IMG/VR virus record: IMGVR_UViG_3300036715_000939
Location: 1 to 33,617 of that record
Origin: a virus
Length of the DNA stretch: 33,617 nt
Reading direction: 5' to 3' (one strand)
Made by a program: the position numbers and the translations under genes. Below are positions 7,524 to 29,744 of this stretch, piece after piece. The notes beneath the pieces are model-generated. The model did no database searches and was not told the DNA's origin. It worked only from the letters and a program-made list of their open reading frames with translations. How positions within the stretch are numbered: position 1 is the first letter of the stretch; the number at the start of each line of letters is the position of its first letter.

Positions 7524-8867
7524 TCAGCCGTAGTAAGTCTTGGTGACAGAAAGACTCTGTCCACCAACAAAACGATAGACAATGTAGTATCCAAGTCCAT
7601 CAGATAAGTGAGTCAGTTTCGCGTCCTGGTGCTTGTCAATCTCCCCACTGCCGCCTTCAAGCAGCCGCACCCCGTCCAAATCGCGCGATGTCATGGGGGC
7701 GCGGTTCGGGTCGCAGTAGAGATGCCTCTCGCCTACGACATTCAGAATGCGGCTGTTCATGCAGTTCACCCTCGCGCGCTCGGTGGGATTAGACCGCGGC
7801 ACGAAATACATGAATCGTTCTCCAAAGTGCGGTTTAAGCACCGACCGGACCAAATCCCAGTCAGACCCCTGGGTCGCCGACGTCTTTCTGTTCCCACCGG
7901 TGGCGTCTCCATACACATGAACCTCGCCTTGGTGCTCACCCCATACTTCAATGAGTTTCCGGCATACGGCCACGGTATTAGAATTCTGAGGTATGTAGAC
8001 CTCACCGATAACCTTGGTCCCGACGAGGCCGTTTGGGAGAATGCCCTCCTGAGCAATAACAGCCACGCCCGGATCCACATTGAAGTCGAAGCAGAACGCG
8101 ATTGGAGCTTTTGGATCATAATCCAATCTAGCCTTATTCGCGTCAGTATAGTTGTAGTACGCCCTTCCGACGAAGTTGACAAAGGATCCCTCGTATTCCT
8201 GCTGAAAAGTAAGCTCATCCATGTCACGCTTAGCCGACTCAACGGTCTGCGCGTCCAAGACCTCAGAACTCTTCCAGTGGTAGTATCCCCACTCGCTCGC
8301 TTCGCCAAACTCAATCATCTGCGCTTTGGCATACTCGGCGATGTCGTAATAGTGGTTTCTTCCTTCAGGCACTCCGATCAGATCGCACCAGCCCTGTCGG
8401 TCGGCCAGCGCAGGCCGGACGTTCGCGTTCCATGCCGACGCCTTCATGTTTCCGTATTCATCAAGGATCCCGCCATCCCAGGGCGACCCTTCAATGCGCT
8501 CTGGCTTGTCCATGCCCACGACCATAATGGTCGAATTCATAATGGTAGTGATGGAAAGCTCTGTTTCTGAGATCCCACGGGGGGCGATCAGCCGCTTCGG
8601 CACCAAGAGCTTCAGATCATTCCAATAGATGCGCTTGGCCTGATCCCGAGTGGGCGCCCCGCAGAAGTATCGTGGATCCGGAAAGCTGCTCGCTCCACGC
8701 ATCCCTGGTGGCATGAGCGCCCGCAGCACAAGTTTCCGCTTTGCGTTCTCTGTCTTTCCCGATCGTCGCCCCGCAGGCACCACATTGAACCTGTGGGGCG
8801 AGTTCGCATACTCCATCTGTGGCTTGATCTCACGCAGTGGAGTCCAACGAGCGGGGAGGCTAAGCAT
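7524..8867 (-). CDS. terL: Terminase large subunit
   Basis: 447 residues; ATP-driven motor that packages DNA and cuts concatemers. The ATPase domain shows a Walker A AGRRSGKT at residues 32-39 and Walker B ILDEYG at 134-139. The nuclease domain has the RNase H-like order: FDFNVDPG with Asp261 and Asp265, GDATGG at 320-325, and the last acidic residue in HLSDGLGYY (Asp423). The GDATGG and SDGLGY motifs match the P22/Sf6-like and related phage terminases. It follows the small subunit by 14 bases and starts the late operon with it. Confidence 0.95.
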   Translation of the reverse strand: MLSLPARWTPLREIKPQMEYANSPHRFNVVPAGRRSGKTENAKRKLVLRALMPPGMRGASSFPDPRYFCGAPTRDQAKRIYWNDLKLLVPKRLIAPRGISETELSITTIMNSTIMVVGMDKPERIEGSPWDGGILDEYGNMKASAWNANVRPALADRQGWCDLIGVPEGRNHYYDIAEYAKAQMIEFGEASEWGYYHWKSSEVLDAQTVESAKRDMDELTFQQEYEGSFVNFVGRAYYNYTDANKARLDYDPKAPIAFCFDFNVDPGVAVIAQEGILPNGLVGTKVIGEVYIPQNSNTVAVCRKLIEVWGEHQGEVHVYGDATGGNRKTSATQGSDWDLVRSVLKPHFGERFMYFVPRSNPTERARVNCMNSRILNVVGERHLYCDPNRAPMTSRDLDGVRLLEGGSGEIDKHQDAKLTHLSDGLGYYIVYRFVGGQSLSVTKTYYG

Positions 8868-8881
8868 CGGCAGCCTACCCG

Positions 8882-9427
8882 CTACTCGCCGCTGGGCGCT
8901 GCGCCCTCGGCATCTGCTTCTTCCTGAAGTCTCCGCTTAACGAGGTAGGCATTGTAGTCAGTCTCCTTACCAGACTGTTTCATTGCCTGATATAGGAAGT
9001 CTCGAACCGCGATCGCGCCATCGTTGTCGCCCTTGGGGGCCTGATCCATACCGAGGAACTTGGACCGTCGGTCAGAAATCTTCAGGAGGATGTCAGCAGA
9101 CTTACTGTCCTTGGCCATGGCCCAATGAATCTTATGGAGTGCGTCCAGGCGGCTGAGCTCAAGGACCATCACTTCATCAATCGTCTCCTGAAGCTCCTTG
9201 TGCAGAAGCTCCAGTCCTGTCTTCACAAGTTCCCTAGCCATGACGGTGCCGATTTCCATGATAGCACCGATTTCCATGTAGTCATGGCCGTCCCGGCGGA
9301 GCTGCATGGCTCGGAGCACTCGGAGCGAAACGCCCAGGGAGGCTTCGTCCACGAACTCAAACACGTCCGCATCGTGCGCGTCGGGGGGAATTTGTAGGGG
9401 TTCCGGTTTTTTACTAGACTTCGCCAT
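8882..9427 (-). CDS. terS: Terminase small subunit
   Basis: 181 residues; recognises the packaging site and hands DNA to TerL. A helix-turn-helix type segment is seen at about residues 38-65 (MQLRRDGHDYMEIGAIMEIGTVMARELV), followed by a long helical oligomerisation part (LLHKELQETIDEVMVLELSRLDALHKIHWAMAKD) and a KSADILLKISDRRSKFLGMD segment typical of small terminases. An acidic tail ends the protein. It is the first gene of the leftward late operon. Assignment rests on this order plus position next to TerL. Confidence 0.8.
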   Translation of the reverse strand: MAKSSKKPEPLQIPPDAHDADVFEFVDEASLGVSLRVLRAMQLRRDGHDYMEIGAIMEIGTVMARELVKTGLELLHKELQETIDEVMVLELSRLDALHKIHWAMAKDSKSADILLKISDRRSKFLGMDQAPKGDNDGAIAVRDFLYQAMKQSGKETDYNAYLVKRRLQEEADAEGAAPSGE

Positions 9428-9586: not shown

Positions 9587-9709
9587 GCTTCTCTGATTCC
9601 CGGATCTCTGGGATCTCTGATTCCCAGCTTCTCTGATCTCTGGTATTCTTGGATTCTTGGATCTCTAGTATTCTTGGATTCTTGGATTCTTGGATTCTTG
9701 GATCTCTGG
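9587..9709. repeat. Short GA/TC-rich direct repeats upstream of terS
   Basis: A gene-free stretch (9428-9990) separates terS from the next minus-strand gene. Within it 9587-9709 consists of repeats of GGATCTCTG and the 8-bp unit GGATTCTT, five or more units in near-perfect tandem at 9651-9700. Similar GGATTCGTGGATCTC text recurs near 13110. The tract has no ribosome site and the open frames across it are low-complexity. It might be a packaging or recombination substrate, but that is only a guess. Confidence 0.6.
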
Positions 9710-9880
9710 CGCGGAGTGAACATTCTGAAGACCAGCATAGATGCACCCCGAGGTGTGCGGAGTATTAGCTTCTCAGTGCTGCGAGACTGGGAGCGCGGCG
9801 CAGCCGTAATGGTACTGAATGGGCATGTGCTTATATACCTATATGTACATAAGCATAACAAGGCATGTTGTAACCTATGG

Positions 9881-9971
9881 CATAGGCTACCAGGGGGTAG
9901 CCTATGGGCATTGTTACAATTTAATACAACAATGCCCATAGGCTACCAGGGGGTAGCCTATGGGCATTGTT
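9881..9971. repeat. Nested inverted and direct repeats forming strong hairpins
   Basis: Two hairpins share one sequence. The first has 11-bp arms (9881-9891 and 9896-9906), the second perfect 18-bp arms (9930-9947 and 9952-9969), both with an AGGG loop. A 35-base block is repeated directly (9881-9915 and 9937-9971, 56 bp apart). The segment between (9902-9942) is itself an inverted repeat around ACAATTTAAT. It lies just downstream of the 156-residue minus-strand gene, so it may terminate its transcript, or be a protein or recombination site. No long T tract is seen. Confidence 0.85.
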
Positions 9972-9990
9972 TACTTGTGCAGTGTTTATG

Positions 9991-10461
9991 CTAGGCTGGC
10001 ACGCTAAGAACAATTGCTTGCTTCTGCCAGGCACAGCGCACAATGCCAGCGTTGATGCTGAACCATGTCCCCGTGTTAGGATGCTGCGCTGCAAGGCCCT
10101 TAACCTTGCACTGGCCATTAGCCTGGGCCTTGGCCTGGGCTGGCAGGGTACAGCCCAGCACTGTGCCAACGGTAACGGGCTGGCCATTGCTGGCCAACTG
10201 TGCCATGGCCTGCAATATGGCATTGTGCCCCGCGCTGCGTACGCTACCGTTGGCAGGTACGGGTACAGGGCCGGTGGCAACCAGTAGGTTATGCGTAGGC
10301 ATGGCGCCCCCGCATAGTTTGGCCATAAGTACGGCCTGAGCCTGCCTACTGCTGGCGCCCTGTAACGGCGTGGCGGGCGTGGCCACGGCTGGCACGGCTG
10401 GCACGGCGTGGGCCTTTACGGCGGTGACTTGCTTGGTAGCGGTAGCTTGCTTGGTGGCCAT
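9991..10461 (-). CDS. Basic protein without Asp or Glu, 156 aa; possible paralogue of the 11937 and 20498 genes
   Basis: Starts at ATG 10461 behind CCCAAAGGGG (an in-frame ATG farther upstream lacks a ribosome site). The product is built from Ala, Val, Gln, Lys, Gly, Pro and Thr and contains no Asp and no Glu, a direct result of the missing GA dinucleotide. An Ala/Val/Pro low-complexity start (VPAVPAVATPATP) precedes a more structured half with HNAILQAMAQLAS and TWFSINAGIV. These align loosely with LRYNIMKAIQ and VGFALANGLI in the 20498 protein, and the leader and ribosome region resemble those of the 11937 gene, so a diverged third paralogue is possible. Function unknown; it may bind nucleic acid given the charge. 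Confidence 0.6.
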   Translation of the reverse strand: MATKQATATKQVTAVKAHAVPAVPAVATPATPLQGASSRQAQAVLMAKLCGGAMPTHNLLVATGPVPVPANGSVRSAGHNAILQAMAQLASNGQPVTVGTVLGCTLPAQAKAQANGQCKVKGLAAQHPNTGTWFSINAGIVRCAWQKQAIVLSVPA

Positions 10462-10516
10462 TGTGTACCCCTTTGGGTAATGGGCTGGGCGGCATTGCCC
10501 TAGCCTGCCTTGTATA

Positions 10517-10540
10517 AGCATAAGGCAGGCCAAAGTGCAA
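10517..10540 (-). promoter_or_regulatory. Probable promoter of the acid-free protein gene
   Basis: TATGCT (10522-10517 on the minus strand) with TTTGCAC 12 bases upstream, about 56 bases before the gene start. The spacing equals that of the third box in the other promoters, but the box normally 22 bases upstream is not recognisable. After the -10 come the arms GCCTGCCT (10504-10511 region) and AGGCAGGC (10523-10530), a pairing that spans the -10 itself. Weaker evidence than for the neighbouring promoters. Confidence 0.45.
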
Positions 10541-10702
10541 AGTGCTATGCTTGCAGCACTTAGCTATATTACCACCTGGTTATAGTGCCGCATTACGGCA
10601 TAGCATAAGCGCCAGTTTACCATAAGTGTAGCAACTGCGCCATTTAGCTTGTGCCGTATTGGGGCTATGTTATGCCGCGCTACGGCACTCCCCAGCAAGG
10701 GT

Positions 10703-10837
10703 CGCGTCGCAGCATCTTTCGTGCCAATTCGCGTCGCAGCATCTTTCGTGCCAATTCGCGTCGCAGCATCTTTCGTGCCAATTCGTGTCGCAGCATCTTT
10801 CGTGCCAATTCGTGTCGCAGCATCTTTCGTGCCAAAT
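10703..10837. repeat. Five tandem copies of a 27-bp repeat
   Basis: Units begin at 10703, 10730, 10757, 10784 and 10811. Each reads CGCGTCGCAGCATCTTTCG plus TGCCAATT; copies 4 and 5 have CGTG in place of CGCG, and the last unit ends AAAT. There are no spacers, so this is not a CRISPR array. Open frames through it (repeated RSIFRANS or RVAASFVPI) lack ribosome sites and are artefacts. The core AGCATCTTT also occurs, inverted, in the module boundaries at 11001-11013 and 11530-11541. It marks the right edge of the GA/TC-poor region. Confidence 0.95.
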
Positions 10838-11010
10838 CCATTCTTTTCATTTTCGTAGTCTATGACTCAGGAGCGGAGTCGCGCAGAGTCTCCTCTCGAG
10901 CGCCCGCGTGTGAGATCAAACCGTGAGCTCCTCGGCTCCTCGAGCGAGCGCCCGCGTGTGAACTCAGTTCCGCGATCTCTGAAGAGTCGCGCAGAGTCAA
11001 GCCAAAGATG

Positions 11011-11060: not shown

Positions 11061-11246
11061 TCAGTTCCAATTCCCGTAGGCATGACGCTCAGCTTCCTCA
11101 ATCTCACGCTGCCACATCTGGTCTATGAAGTCGCGTAGTCGCTGATGCCCGGAGCGCTTGACACGGATTGTCCTTGCTTCTCCGGCACACAGCCGCTTGC
11201 AGAGGATGTCTCCTGTGTAGGGGTGACGGGGGAGACGGGGGAGCAT
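11061..11246 (-). CDS. Small basic protein, 61 aa
   Basis: ATG 11246 overlaps the TAA of the upstream 45-residue gene by one base (TAATG), so translation is coupled. The protein begins MLPRLPRHPYTGDILCKRL and ends with a charged helix (QRLRDFIDQMWQREIEEAERH). A longer frame starting at 11369 runs through the other gene and has no ribosome site. Second gene of a two-gene module with promoter, hairpin leader and terminator. Unknown function; small basic early proteins of phages often target host enzymes, which is speculation here. Confidence 0.55.
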   Translation of the reverse strand: MLPRLPRHPYTGDILCKRLCAGEARTIRVKRSGHQRLRDFIDQMWQREIEEAERHAYGNWN

Positions 11247-11383
11247 TAGCCCACCTTGACCAAGCGCCGCGCGACGCGGGGGGAGTTGCCGCAGGCGATG
11301 AGCCCGCAGAAGAGATACGAGCAGGACAGCGCCCAGACAGCGACGTGCCTGGAAACGCGGATGGTGCAACGGAACTTTGACAT
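11246..11383 (-). CDS. Small membrane protein, 45 aa
   Basis: ATG 11383 behind CAAAGGGGTCCACA, the same leader end used by the 10461 and 11937 genes. The start MSKFRCTIRVSRHVA is basic, followed by one hydrophobic helix (about residues 15-31, VAVWALSCSYLFCGLIA) and a basic end (RVARRLVKVG), predicting a single-span membrane protein. The segment CGLIACG could instead be a lipoprotein-like cysteine, though no signal-peptidase II pattern is clear. Own promoter 50 bases upstream. Confidence 0.6.
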   Translation of the reverse strand: MSKFRCTIRVSRHVAVWALSCSYLFCGLIACGNSPRVARRLVKVG

Positions 11384-11429
11384 TGTGGACCCCTTTGGGC
11401 TGCGACAGGCACCCTTGCCTGGTATGTAT

Positions 11430-11475
11430 AGTATAAGGCGGGCGGGGCTCAAATGCTGGTCAAACTTTGCTCAAA
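11430..11475 (-). promoter_or_regulatory. Early promoter with three 11-bp-phased boxes
   Basis: Read on the minus strand: TTTGAGC (11475-11469), TTTGACC (11464-11458) and TTTGAGC (11453-11447), each 11 bp apart, then TATACT at 11435-11430. The middle box is 22 bp from the -10. Leader hairpin CAGGCA-AGGG-TGCCTG follows before the ribosome site. Confidence 0.8.
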
Positions 11476-11540
11476 TATTTTGGACCCATGATCTTAGAAT
11501 TTTCGACCACGAGTCGCGCAGAGTCAAGCCAAAGATGCTC

Positions 11541-11567
11541 AAAATAAGGAGCCCTCGTGGGCTCCTT
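11541..11567 (-). terminator. Intrinsic terminator after the 116-aa gene
   Basis: Minus-strand hairpin AAGGAGCCC-ACGA-GGGCTCCTT (9 perfect pairs), then TTATTTTGAG. It is 19 bases past the gene stop. The same arms appear at 11019-11042 with a different centre. Confidence 0.85.
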
Positions 11568-11586
11568 GCGTGGACGCGCGTGTGAA

Positions 11587-11937
11587 CTATTTGGCGCTGA
11601 CGAACCCGTTGGTGATGCAGAAGACGACATCAGTCATCTTGATGGCGTAGGGCTTGGAGTCGTGCTTGGACCCCGGCTTGCCGTAGACCTCAGCTCCGAG
11701 CGCCTCGCCCACGGTGGACACGGACTGCACCTTGGCGACGATGTTGAAGCGGAGTCCCGGCTTGCAGTCGTTGGGCTTGCCCATGGACAGCTTGGTGGAC
11801 GCAACAGGCACCTTGATCTCGGTGGCCTTGGTGAACAGAGAGGTCTTGACAGCGGCGCAGGCCGGGCGAGTAGCGCGGTGCTCGCGGGCCATGACGGCGG
11901 CGGCGACGGACTTGGGGGAGGTGGACTTGGTGGCCAT
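11587..11937 (-). CDS. Phage paralogue-family protein, 116 aa (copy 1)
   Basis: ATG 11937 with AAAGGAGCCTACA before it. Compared with the 136-residue protein at 20498, shared elements occur in the same order: RPACAAVK / RPTCAAVR, LRFNIVAKVQ / LRYNIMKAIQ, TVGEALGAEVYG / TVADAIAKEVHG, KPYAIKMTDVVF / KPYRIKRVDVGF and ITNGFV / LANGLI. The two are therefore paralogues on opposite strands, 9 kb apart. Basic Ala/Ser-rich N-terminus, no membrane helix. The function is unknown to me; conserved Cys and the positively charged character allow DNA binding. Its own promoter, leader hairpin and terminator form a complete module. Confidence 0.65.
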   Translation of the reverse strand: MATKSTSPKSVAAAVMAREHRATRPACAAVKTSLFTKATEIKVPVASTKLSMGKPNDCKPGLRFNIVAKVQSVSTVGEALGAEVYGKPGSKHDSKPYAIKMTDVVFCITNGFVSAK

Positions 11938-11983
11938 TGTAGGCTCCTTTGGGTTGTGACAGGCACCCTTGCCTGGCACATAT

Positions 11984-12029
11984 AGTATAGGGCCTGCGCC
12001 GCTCAAATGCACATCAAACTTTTGTCAAA
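11984..12029 (-). promoter_or_regulatory. Early promoter with three 11-bp-phased boxes
   Basis: Minus strand: TTTGACA (12029-12023), TTTGATG (12018-12012), TTTGAGC (12007-12001), then TATACT at 11989-11984; the middle box is 22 bp from the -10. A leader hairpin with arms CAGGCA and TGCCTG (11960-11975) lies before AAAGGAG. Confidence 0.82.
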
Positions 12030-13025: not shown

Positions 13026-13116
13026 GTTTGGCTCGTCACTAAGAGTCGCGTGGAGTCAAGTTGAATGAATATTCGAGCGGAGATTGTCGGCAAAAGACTG
13101 AGATTCGTGGATTCGT

Positions 13117-13209
13117 GGATCTCCGCGTGTGAACTCCAGTCGCGTCGGTAAAGAGCGGAATTCGTTGAGTCTCGGATCTCCGCGTGTGAACTCCAGTCGC
13201 GTCGGTAAA
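13117..13209. repeat. 36-bp direct repeat
   Basis: Identical blocks at 13117-13152 and 13174-13209, 57 bp apart, containing GGATCTCCGCGTGTGAACTC and a GTCGCGTCGGTAAA end. They carry the 3' element of the small-gene modules although no gene lies here, suggesting remnants of lost modules. Confidence 0.9.
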
Positions 13210-13353
13210 TTAAGGACTAGGATCTCTGGATTACAGCGAAAATGAGCGAAAAATGAAGCGAGGGATGAGCGTGGAACTCGGATCTTTGGCGCGATCTATG
13301 GAGTAGAAAACACCGATTTTGTGGACGTGGTTCTTTGTGCTCAGATCGCTCGT

Positions 13354-13682
13354 CGTTCCGAGAACATAGTCAACTCGGAATGATTCCGAATTTTGCATAA
13401 CTCGGAATCGAGAATCACACCGCCTTTAGGGGGAGGATTATGGTGCCGCCGGAGAAGCAGAGAATCTTAGAGAAGCGTCGAATCTTATCGGCGAATCTTA
13501 TCAGTTACTCATTATGGGCAGGCATATTCCGTGCCAGGAAGCATCAGAGATCCAAGTTTCCAAAAAGTTTATTTTAAGCGCCCCTAACTATATATACCTA
13601 GAATAAAATATATAAATATAATAAATAAATAAATAGGAAGGTATAGAATTATATTTATATTTTTTATTTTATTAAATATAAA
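13354..13682. other. Candidate replication origin
   Basis: The window has no gene from 12944 to 13979, where leftward and rightward transcription diverge. It holds CTCGGAA motifs in both orientations (13356-13362, 13374-13388 including CGGAATGATTCCG, and 13401-13407), three copies of GAATCTTA (13462, 13480, 13493), then a tract from 13585 to 13682 that is almost purely A and T. Direct repeats beside an AT-rich unwinding element at a divergence point are typical of origins. No replication protein site is known for this phage, so the call is inference. Confidence 0.45.
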
Positions 13683-20497: not shown

Positions 20498-20908
20498 ATG
20501 GCTGCTACTTCCACCAAGATCCCCGCCGGCTCGCGTCCCGCCCCGGTGCTCCCCGCCGCCCCCAAGGCGAAGATCCAGCCCATCAAGCAGGCCAATGTCC
20601 CCGAGGGCGTTGCCAAGGCTGTTCGCAGTCACCTCGCCGACCGCCCCACCTGTGCTGCCGTCCGCAAGGAGGTCGCGAATAGCGACATCATCGCCAAGGT
20701 GGCCGACACCACGGCGCGGCAGGGGTCGCTGCGCTACAACATCATGAAGGCCATCCAGGAGTCCAAGACGGTGGCTGATGCCATCGCCAAGGAAGTCCAC
20801 GGCCCCGGCAAGCACGAGGCCGCGGACAAGCCCTACCGCATCAAGCGGGTGGATGTCGGGTTCGCGCTGGCCAACGGGCTCATCACTCTGACCAAGGCGG
20901 CCAAGTAG
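20498..20908 (+). CDS. Phage paralogue-family protein, 136 aa (copy 2)
   Basis: ATG 20498 behind AAGGAGCCTATC, nearly identical to the ribosome site of the 11937 gene. Shares with that protein RPTCAAVR, LRYNIMKAIQ, TVADAIAKEVHG, DKPYRIKRVDVGF and LANGLI, in order. The N-terminus is a longer Ala/Pro/Lys linker (STKIPAGSRPAPVLPAAPKAK). No membrane span; basic, likely nucleic acid- or protein-binding. Own promoter and followed by a strong hairpin. The function is not known to me. Confidence 0.65.
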   Translation: MAATSTKIPAGSRPAPVLPAAPKAKIQPIKQANVPEGVAKAVRSHLADRPTCAAVRKEVANSDIIAKVADTTARQGSLRYNIMKAIQESKTVADAIAKEVHGPGKHEAADKPYRIKRVDVGFALANGLITLTKAAK

Positions 20909-28391: not shown

Positions 28392-29309
28392 ATGGCAATC
28401 AGGGGAATGAAGGCGGCCACCGCACCCATGGATCTTCGCAAGATGCGGCTTCCGAAGTATGGCAGCACCAAGATTAATGGCGTGCGCGGAATCGTTGTTG
28501 ATGGCGTATTGATGAGTTACAACATGAAGCCCATCGTCAACGACTTCACGCAGGCCATGTTCGGCAGGCCAGAGTTAAATGGTTTTGATGGAGAAATTGT
28601 GGTCGGGGCCCCAAACGACCACAATTCACTTCGCAACACAATGAGCGCCATCACTAGGCACCACGGGGAATGCGATGTTCATTTTTATCTCTTTGATAAT
28701 TACCTGTTAGAGGCCGATTATCACCGCAGGTACGAAAATATGCTGTGGCAGCGCGACACTGGAAAGTGGCGCGGCGTGTGCGACCGCCTTGTAGTAATTG
28801 AACAGAAAGCACTCGTGACATACGACGCTCTTGAAGCATTTGAAGAAGATGTCTTGAACCGTGGCTTCGAAGGAATCATGCTGCGAAGGATTGACGGGCG
28901 CTACAAGTTTGGGCGAAGCACCCCTAGCGAGGATGATCTGTGGAAAGTAAAGCGGTTCGTAGACGCGGAGGCCGTGGTAATCGGATTCGAGGAGGGAATG
29001 CACAATGCCAACGAACTTCAAGTGAACGAGCTGGGCAAGGCCAAACGGACTTCTCACAAAGAAAATAAAGTCCCAAAAGGCACGCTCGGGGGACTGCTGG
29101 TTCGCGGCATAAACGGACAATACAAGGGCGTTGAATACCGAGTCGGCATCGGATTCGATCAGCTAACCGCCCAAGAAATCTGGGACAATCAGGACACCTG
29201 GATGGGAAAGATCATCAAGGTGAAATACTTCCCAGTGGGAAACCTCAACAAACCGGCCCACACTTCATTCGAAGGCGAGTTCTTGGGTGAGCGGCCAGAG
29301 GGAATGTGA
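28392..29309 (+). CDS. ATP-dependent DNA ligase, T7-like
   Basis: 305 residues, ATG 28392 behind GAGGAGCAAGC. Seals nicks during phage replication. The nucleotidyl transfer domain shows motif I KINGVRG (Lys27 as the AMP acceptor; the usual KxDG Asp is Asn29), motif III FYLFDNYL, motif IV EGIMLRR (Glu160) and motif V LWKVKRF (183-189). The C-terminal OB-fold part holds LGGLLVRGINGQYKGVEYRVGIGFD and ends with VKYFPVG, as in T7 ligase. The gene overlaps the next by four bases (GTGA). The Asn in motif I is the only oddity. Confidence 0.88.
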   Translation: MAIRGMKAATAPMDLRKMRLPKYGSTKINGVRGIVVDGVLMSYNMKPIVNDFTQAMFGRPELNGFDGEIVVGAPNDHNSLRNTMSAITRHHGECDVHFYLFDNYLLEADYHRRYENMLWQRDTGKWRGVCDRLVVIEQKALVTYDALEAFEEDVLNRGFEGIMLRRIDGRYKFGRSTPSEDDLWKVKRFVDAEAVVIGFEEGMHNANELQVNELGKAKRTSHKENKVPKGTLGGLLVRGINGQYKGVEYRVGIGFDQLTAQEIWDNQDTWMGKIIKVKYFPVGNLNKPAHTSFEGEFLGERPEGM

Positions 29310-29473
29310 GGTCTTCCAAGCGCAGACTGAACTCCTGGCGTGGTCGCCAAGCCGGTAAGTCAGCCGAGCAGTTTGAAATGATGCGACGGTGGATTCTTGA
29401 TGTTCAGTACAGGGGTCTGTGCATCGTCTGGGACGCCTACCCCATGGAAGCATTTTCCTACTACGGAGCTTGA
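29306..29473 (+). CDS. Small basic protein, 55 aa
   Basis: GTG 29306 overlaps the ligase stop (GTGA), with AGAGGGAAT before it. Basic start (RSSKRRLNSWRGRQAGK) followed by a helix FEMMRRWILDVQYRGLCIVWDAY. The 3' end is one base from the next start. Function unknown; co-translation with ligase suggests a replication role. Confidence 0.5.
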   Translation: MRSSKRRLNSWRGRQAGKSAEQFEMMRRWILDVQYRGLCIVWDAYPMEAFSYYGA

Positions 29474-29474
29474 A

Positions 29475-29744
29475 ATGATCGACACGCCTCGTCTTAAAGA
29501 ACTTCTCAGCAGAGAGTACAGTGGGAAAACCGTGTTCCTTCTTGGCAAGAAACAGGAGTGGATGGTTGAGCAATTAATCTGCGATGAAAAGGATCTGAAA
29601 CGCCTGGGTGGAACGCACCTCGCCAGCGCCGAAATGGTCATAGCAGATCTACTAGCTCTGTTAGATCGAGCGCGTAACTATGTGACAGATAGTGAACTTC
29701 GTGCAGAAATCACCCGCGTAGCGCCCCCGAAAGCGAGGACATAA
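29475..29744 (+). CDS. Hypothetical protein, 89 aa
   Basis: ATG 29475 behind CGGAGCTTGAA; a longer frame from 29397 overlaps the previous gene. MIDTPRLKELLSREYSGKTVFLLGKKQEWMVEQLIC has a strand-like core, followed by an acidic helix (HLASAEMVIADLLALLDRARNYV). Between ligase and a further small gene. Unknown family. Confidence 0.5.
   Translation: MIDTPRLKELLSREYSGKTVFLLGKKQEWMVEQLICDEKDLKRLGGTHLASAEMVIADLLALLDRARNYVTDSELRAEITRVAPPKART

Follow-up and report, generated by a model that had tools for sequence, protein, structure and literature searches.

A kilobase island kept almost free of GA/TC dinucleotides beside the terminase genes of uncultured phages

Is the loss of GA and TC real, and is it maintained?

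Why should a virus remove one two-letter word, TC (GA on the other strand), from almost 900 bp of its genome, across coding and non-coding DNA alike, while using it freely elsewhere? We addressed this question with a 33,617-bp record of an uncultured virus (IMG/VR IMGVR_UViG_3300036715_000939; hereafter, the window, meaning this whole stretch), in which a preliminary description made from the letters alone had reported such a desert, with GA/TC-rich flanks. The observation held. Positions 9819-10688 contain 6 GA and 2 TC, whereas base composition predicts 106.5 (observed/expected, O/E, 0.08; binomial P about 5.5e-38). When O/E was computed along the window, as that description had proposed as a test, all windows clear of the desert gave GA/TC values of 0.76-1.37, and no other dinucleotide class was comparably depleted anywhere. 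The GA/TC-free runs are 191, 258 and 263 bp, plus one of 88 bp; the next longest in the window is 62 bp. Since both GA and TC are missing, this is a property of double-stranded DNA. GC, TA and CA/TG are enriched instead. The flanks are indeed rich, with O/E of 2.15 (9587-9709), 1.94 (10860-11000) and 1.72 (13080-13220). The left-flank enrichment recurs in close relatives (1.3-1.6), but not in a more distant cousin, G010 (0.99). The features of the locus are as follows.

9818..10688, no strand: GA/TC desert (maximal scoring segment 9792-10689, score 88.6)
10008..10081, no strand: leaky stretch holding six of the eight GA/TC; relatives have few or none here
9991..10461, minus strand: desert gene P0001, 156 aa, without Asp or Glu, conserved at 82-95% in relatives
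9868..9971, no strand: strong nested hairpins downstream of the desert gene (GGTAGCCTATGGGCATTGTT arms), not conserved in sequence in relatives
10702..10836, plus strand: five 27-bp direct repeats (iterons), TCGCGTCGCAGCATCTTTCGTGCCAAT, abutting the desert; present in five of six close relatives and missing in one, G001, whose desert extends instead
9587..9709, no strand: GA/TC-rich, low-complexity left flank
10860..11000, no strand: GA/TC-rich right flank with repeated GAGTCGCGCAGAGTC units
8882..9427, minus strand: gene in the terS position, directly upstream of terL; it matches phrog_645, which PHROGs labels 'RNase E', probably wrongly
7524..8867, minus strand: terminase large subunit
11587..11937, minus strand: P0002, an ordinary gene outside the desert with normal Asp/Glu
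20498..20908, plus strand: P0003, a further member of the P0002 family (39% identical)

The desert is not a sequencing error, as independent assemblies from several metagenomes carry it, with long stretches of zero GA/TC. Relatives found in IMG/VR by the desert protein (82-95% identity) have cleaner deserts: 1,042 bp with none in G001, 959 bp with none in G003, two GA/TC in G002, and four each in G004 and G005. We then asked whether the avoidance is actively maintained. Aligned pairs of relatives differ by 110-255 substitutions inside the desert. If each substitution type had fallen at random on the same base, 35-59 GA/TC would have arisen, but only 0-4 are present (z -7.5 to -9.5). By contrast, the left flank shows no such deficit, and it diverges less (87-93% identity, against 72-87% inside the desert). 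Thus, the DNA changes freely except that it may not spell GA or TC. The preliminary description had stated that codon choice cannot explain the desert; this is right and goes further, because amino acids were sacrificed. P0001 contains no Asp or Glu (P 8e-10), and GA/TC is avoided at all three codon phases, within codons and across codon junctions.

A second lineage keeps a desert at the same place. G010, whose terminase large subunit is 67% identical, has a 589-bp desert with two GA/TC next to the terminase genes. The gene inside it is different: it belongs to the P0002 family and is 41% identical to P0002 of the window, which lies outside the desert with 7 Asp/Glu in 116 residues, whereas the desert copy has 2 in 135. 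Two further relatives, G008 and G009, show partial deserts there, near or up to their contig ends. The P0002 family has repeated GA/TC-rich leaders (window 11061-12012 and 20498-20908) and also includes a broken copy at 11061-11383 and the C-terminus of L088:15776-16477. The start region of P0002 is 86% identical over 29 nt to that of P0001, but a profile comparison did not show the two proteins to be paralogs (hhalign E 0.27), and neither has a PHROG or Pfam family at E 0.001.

A predicted thymine-hypermodification module in a complete relative

Given that the avoided word might be the target of a DNA modification, we searched relatives for modification genes. The window is a fragment and does not itself contain the module described here. 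G005 (60,490 bp) has ends that are joined by another contig, L107, so it is circular, about 60.2 kb, and it is syntenic with the window over 19.2-53.0 kb. Just past the syntenic end of the window, at 56.5-59.9 kb, it encodes a protein that we call X318, an HMUDK_hel protein (PF18723, E 2e-44), a thymidylate-synthase-like protein (PF00303, E 2e-18; phrog_5131, E 6e-112) and an HD nucleotidase. The closest known systems are the 5hmdU-derived thymidine hypermodifications of Pseudomonas phage M6, Salmonella phage ViI and Delftia phage phiW-14, with their HMUDK/aGPT-Pplase clusters. The HMUDK_hel, thymidylate-synthase-like and HD nucleotidase genes lie in the same order in Bordetella phage CN2 and Pseudanabaena phage Pam3, where the block is accompanied by P-loop kinase and aminoacyl genes. 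In G005, tblastn with kinase queries did not find the separate P-loop 5hmdU DNA kinase, which is found in other desert phages such as G056 and L209, and tblastn with a single query, the Pam3 protein, gave no hit for the aminoacyl transferase AADT2. Contig names show that the samples of G001, G003, G004, G009 and G010 also hold contigs with this module.

The structure of X318 is predicted with pLDDT 91 and matches T4 DNA beta-glucosyltransferase (BGT) best (Z 21.0, 3.6 A over 293 residues to 1nzd; Foldseek E 2.8e-8 to 1c3j), with the alpha-glucosyltransferase AGT next (Z 16-17) and other GT-B proteins at 16.8 and below. Sequence identity is 10-13%, and there is no sequence-level hit in PDB. In T4 the product is glucosyl-hmC; here the partner gene is thymidylate-synthase-like and lies in a thymine-hypermodification block, suggesting hmU rather than hmC as the acceptor. 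In G005 this BGT-fold protein takes the place of the P-loop kinase next to HMUDK_hel. The protein at L088:16552-17505 and its relatives (an alignment of 18 sequences) form a family with a T4 BGT-like predicted fold and no PHROG or Pfam family, often next to HMUDK_hel, with weak homologs in Escherichia phages EP_H11 and IME392 and Cronobacter phage S13. The HMUDK_hel model (pLDDT 92) best matches the PaMx11 5-PmdU glycinyltransferase (Z 11.5) and then, among others, HhH-GPD base-flipping DNA glycosylases; this Z is below the caution line for helical proteins and is suggestive only.

Local deserts and HMUDK_hel phages

We next examined whether such deserts go with HMUDK_hel. A log-odds segment scan of all ten strand-symmetric dinucleotide classes over about 50 related or HMUDK_hel-bearing records, leaving out low-complexity segments, showed that every segment above score 19 is GA/TC and lies in the desert lineage or in an HMUDK_hel phage: besides the lineage of the window, these are G071, G067, G033, G032, G070, G034, G056, G036 and G050. 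None lies in 12 terminase relatives taken as controls. At the level of loci, 9 of 72 HMUDK_hel loci (1.17 Mb) have a GA/TC segment of score 14 or more, against 0 of 62 terminase control loci without the gene (0.69 Mb; Fisher p 0.003). HMUDK_hel is not sufficient, however: 21 of 32 HMUDK_hel contigs show no GA/TC desert at score 14, a whole-contig count that is mildly biased because a few contigs were chosen after a first scan, whereas the locus comparison is not. Nor is there one in isolates M6, Ab20, Golden, phiW-14, CN2 or Pam3, of which the last-named CN2 and Pam3 were scanned over 50/62 and 50/54.5 kb and phiW-14 over 150/157 kb. M6, Ab20, CN2, Pam3 and phiW-14 also lack a CA/TG desert, and CA/TG-poor tracts in Golden and in G024 are low-complexity repeats. 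The seven genomes in which AADT2 was found have no desert, suggesting that deserts go with other branches of the pathway, although this was noticed after the fact. Our searches found no cultured phage close to the desert phages.

The desert of the window lies 0.4 kb from the terS-position gene. Deserts also lie near terminase genes in G008-G010, G056 (272 bp from terS), G071 (1.9 kb from terS) and, more weakly, G032 (about 2 kb before terL). G032 carries at least five separate small GA/TC deserts (30.6, 57.0, 57.3, 63.8 and 64.2 kb). Elsewhere deserts lie in replication or modification modules. Against a packaging role, those in G034, G067 and G070 are far from terL, and no terL was firmly placed for G033 or G036.

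A modification-free control site as the favoured reading

The preliminary description had offered avoidance of a nuclease or DNA-modification target, a TC-context deaminase, or an unusual source, and had mentioned 7-deazaguanine chemistry; its interpretation is only partly supported, in that avoidance of a modification target is supported but that chemistry is not. We consider the following most likely, at a probability of roughly 0.66. The phage would replace thymine by a bulky hypermodified thymine at TC. The thymidylate-synthase-like enzyme would make 5-hydroxymethyl-dUMP, and after replication the base-flipping HMUDK_hel protein would read the DNA while X318 adds the group, probably a sugar. 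About 900 bp beside terS/terL, kept free of TC/GA by selection, could then hardly carry the group on either strand, and would stay bare for proteins that must read normal DNA, most likely the small terminase at a packaging site, or else the replication initiator at an origin. What our analyses establish is the desert, the purifying selection on it, its conservation beside terminase genes, the presence of the module in a complete relative, and the association of local GA/TC deserts with HMUDK_hel phages. By contrast, the modification itself, its TC context in this phage, the hydroxymethylase activity, the transfer of a sugar, and the protein that needs the bare DNA, including any binding of the small terminase to the iterons, are inferred.

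The TC context is inferred from the depletion and from other phages, where TG is also implicated: restriction analysis of DNA from Pseudomonas phage M6, Salmonella phage ViI and Delftia phage phiW-14 led its authors to propose that hypermodified T lies in TG or TC, set by the 5hmdU DNA kinase (PMC6449724). The packaging site is tentatively favoured by the position beside terS, with iterons abutting the desert in five of six relatives. A mapped pac site in another modified phage, 9g, lies next to direct repeats, and such sites are physically close to the terminase genes (PMC5567051). In phage P1, whose packaging depends on Dam methylation, the modification state of the packaging site likewise matters to the terminase, but P1 pac is rich in methylation sites, whereas here the segment is purged of the site. 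CpG islands are also segments kept free of a genome-wide base modification around a control site, but there CpG is retained, while here the word is removed from the sequence, genes included. P0001 may be a protein that works on this site, as a marginally similar gene (E 0.003) fills the G071 desert, but this is a guess.

If this reading is correct, phages with TC-specific thymine hypermodification write unmodified islands into their genomes by removing the target dinucleotide from kilobase stretches, genes included, to protect a packaging or replication site from their own DNA modification, and a virus must shield part of its genome from its own DNA armour, even at the cost of all acidic residues in a protein. 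It would make testable an old question, namely why putThy in phiW-14 is non-randomly placed and tied to packaging (PMC5977210). The missing dinucleotide would reveal the specificity of a modifying enzyme from sequence alone, and the desert would mark the site that needs bare DNA, giving a new way to find DNA modifications and packaging or origin sites in uncultured phages. We found no description of a dinucleotide desert in the literature searched, nor of a hypermodification branch that pairs HMUDK_hel with a BGT-fold protein.

The main rival, possible but less likely, is that the same modification-free island serves as a replication origin, or as a central control region for divergent transcription. 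In G005, the cumulative GC-skew minimum (28,422) lies 350 bp from the desert (28,775-29,725), with the maximum about half a genome away; iterons abut the desert of the window; and some deserts in other phages follow primase/helicase genes (G033, G034, G070). The desert beside terS in G056 (L289:16823-17453) holds an array of TGTTACACTAG repeats in both orientations, like binding sites. However, gene orientation flips near the same point in G005, which alone can make the skew, the desert is anchored to terS/terL in several lineages, and we identified no initiator gene beside it.

It is unlikely that the phage instead avoids a phage- or host-encoded nuclease, nickase or glycosylase acting at GA/TC on one special structure, such as single-stranded or packaging-intermediate DNA. 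In favour of this view, the purging is local while the rest of the genome keeps normal GA/TC, but a TC-cutting enzyme would have to act only on this kilobase, the association with HMUDK_hel would be unexplained unless the enzyme recognises the modification, and no co-occurring candidate nuclease was identified. A 7-deazaguanine-type modification of G in GA motifs is very unlikely. Phages with such motifs exist (Olsen et al. 2023, cited in PMC11008142), and the dPreQ0 phages of the Queuovirinae share the same dinucleotide word, but they involve a different base and pathway, and no desert is reported for them in the text we read. TGT/DpdA (PF01702) was absent from 13 related records, including the complete G005, whereas the search detected it in 14 of 14 control genomes. 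A mutational origin is the weakest reading, since no result supports it: AA and TT are not in excess (0.93 and 0.97), which speaks against a TC deaminase, while the syntenic position in divergent relatives, the age of the segment, and the start region of P0001 as a diverged copy of that of its neighbour speak against a foreign insert of odd composition; the substitution test contradicts a mutational origin of either kind.

Two further features were observed. G015 (L136-L140; 86,878 bp), a terminase relative without HMUDK_hel that served as a control, has GA/TC-poor windows and no local GA/TC desert, but is depleted of GA/TC across its whole genome (O/E 0.57), a different, genome-wide avoidance. 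In the window, an AT-rich inverted repeat lies at 13590-13671, in the intergenic region between leftward and rightward genes.
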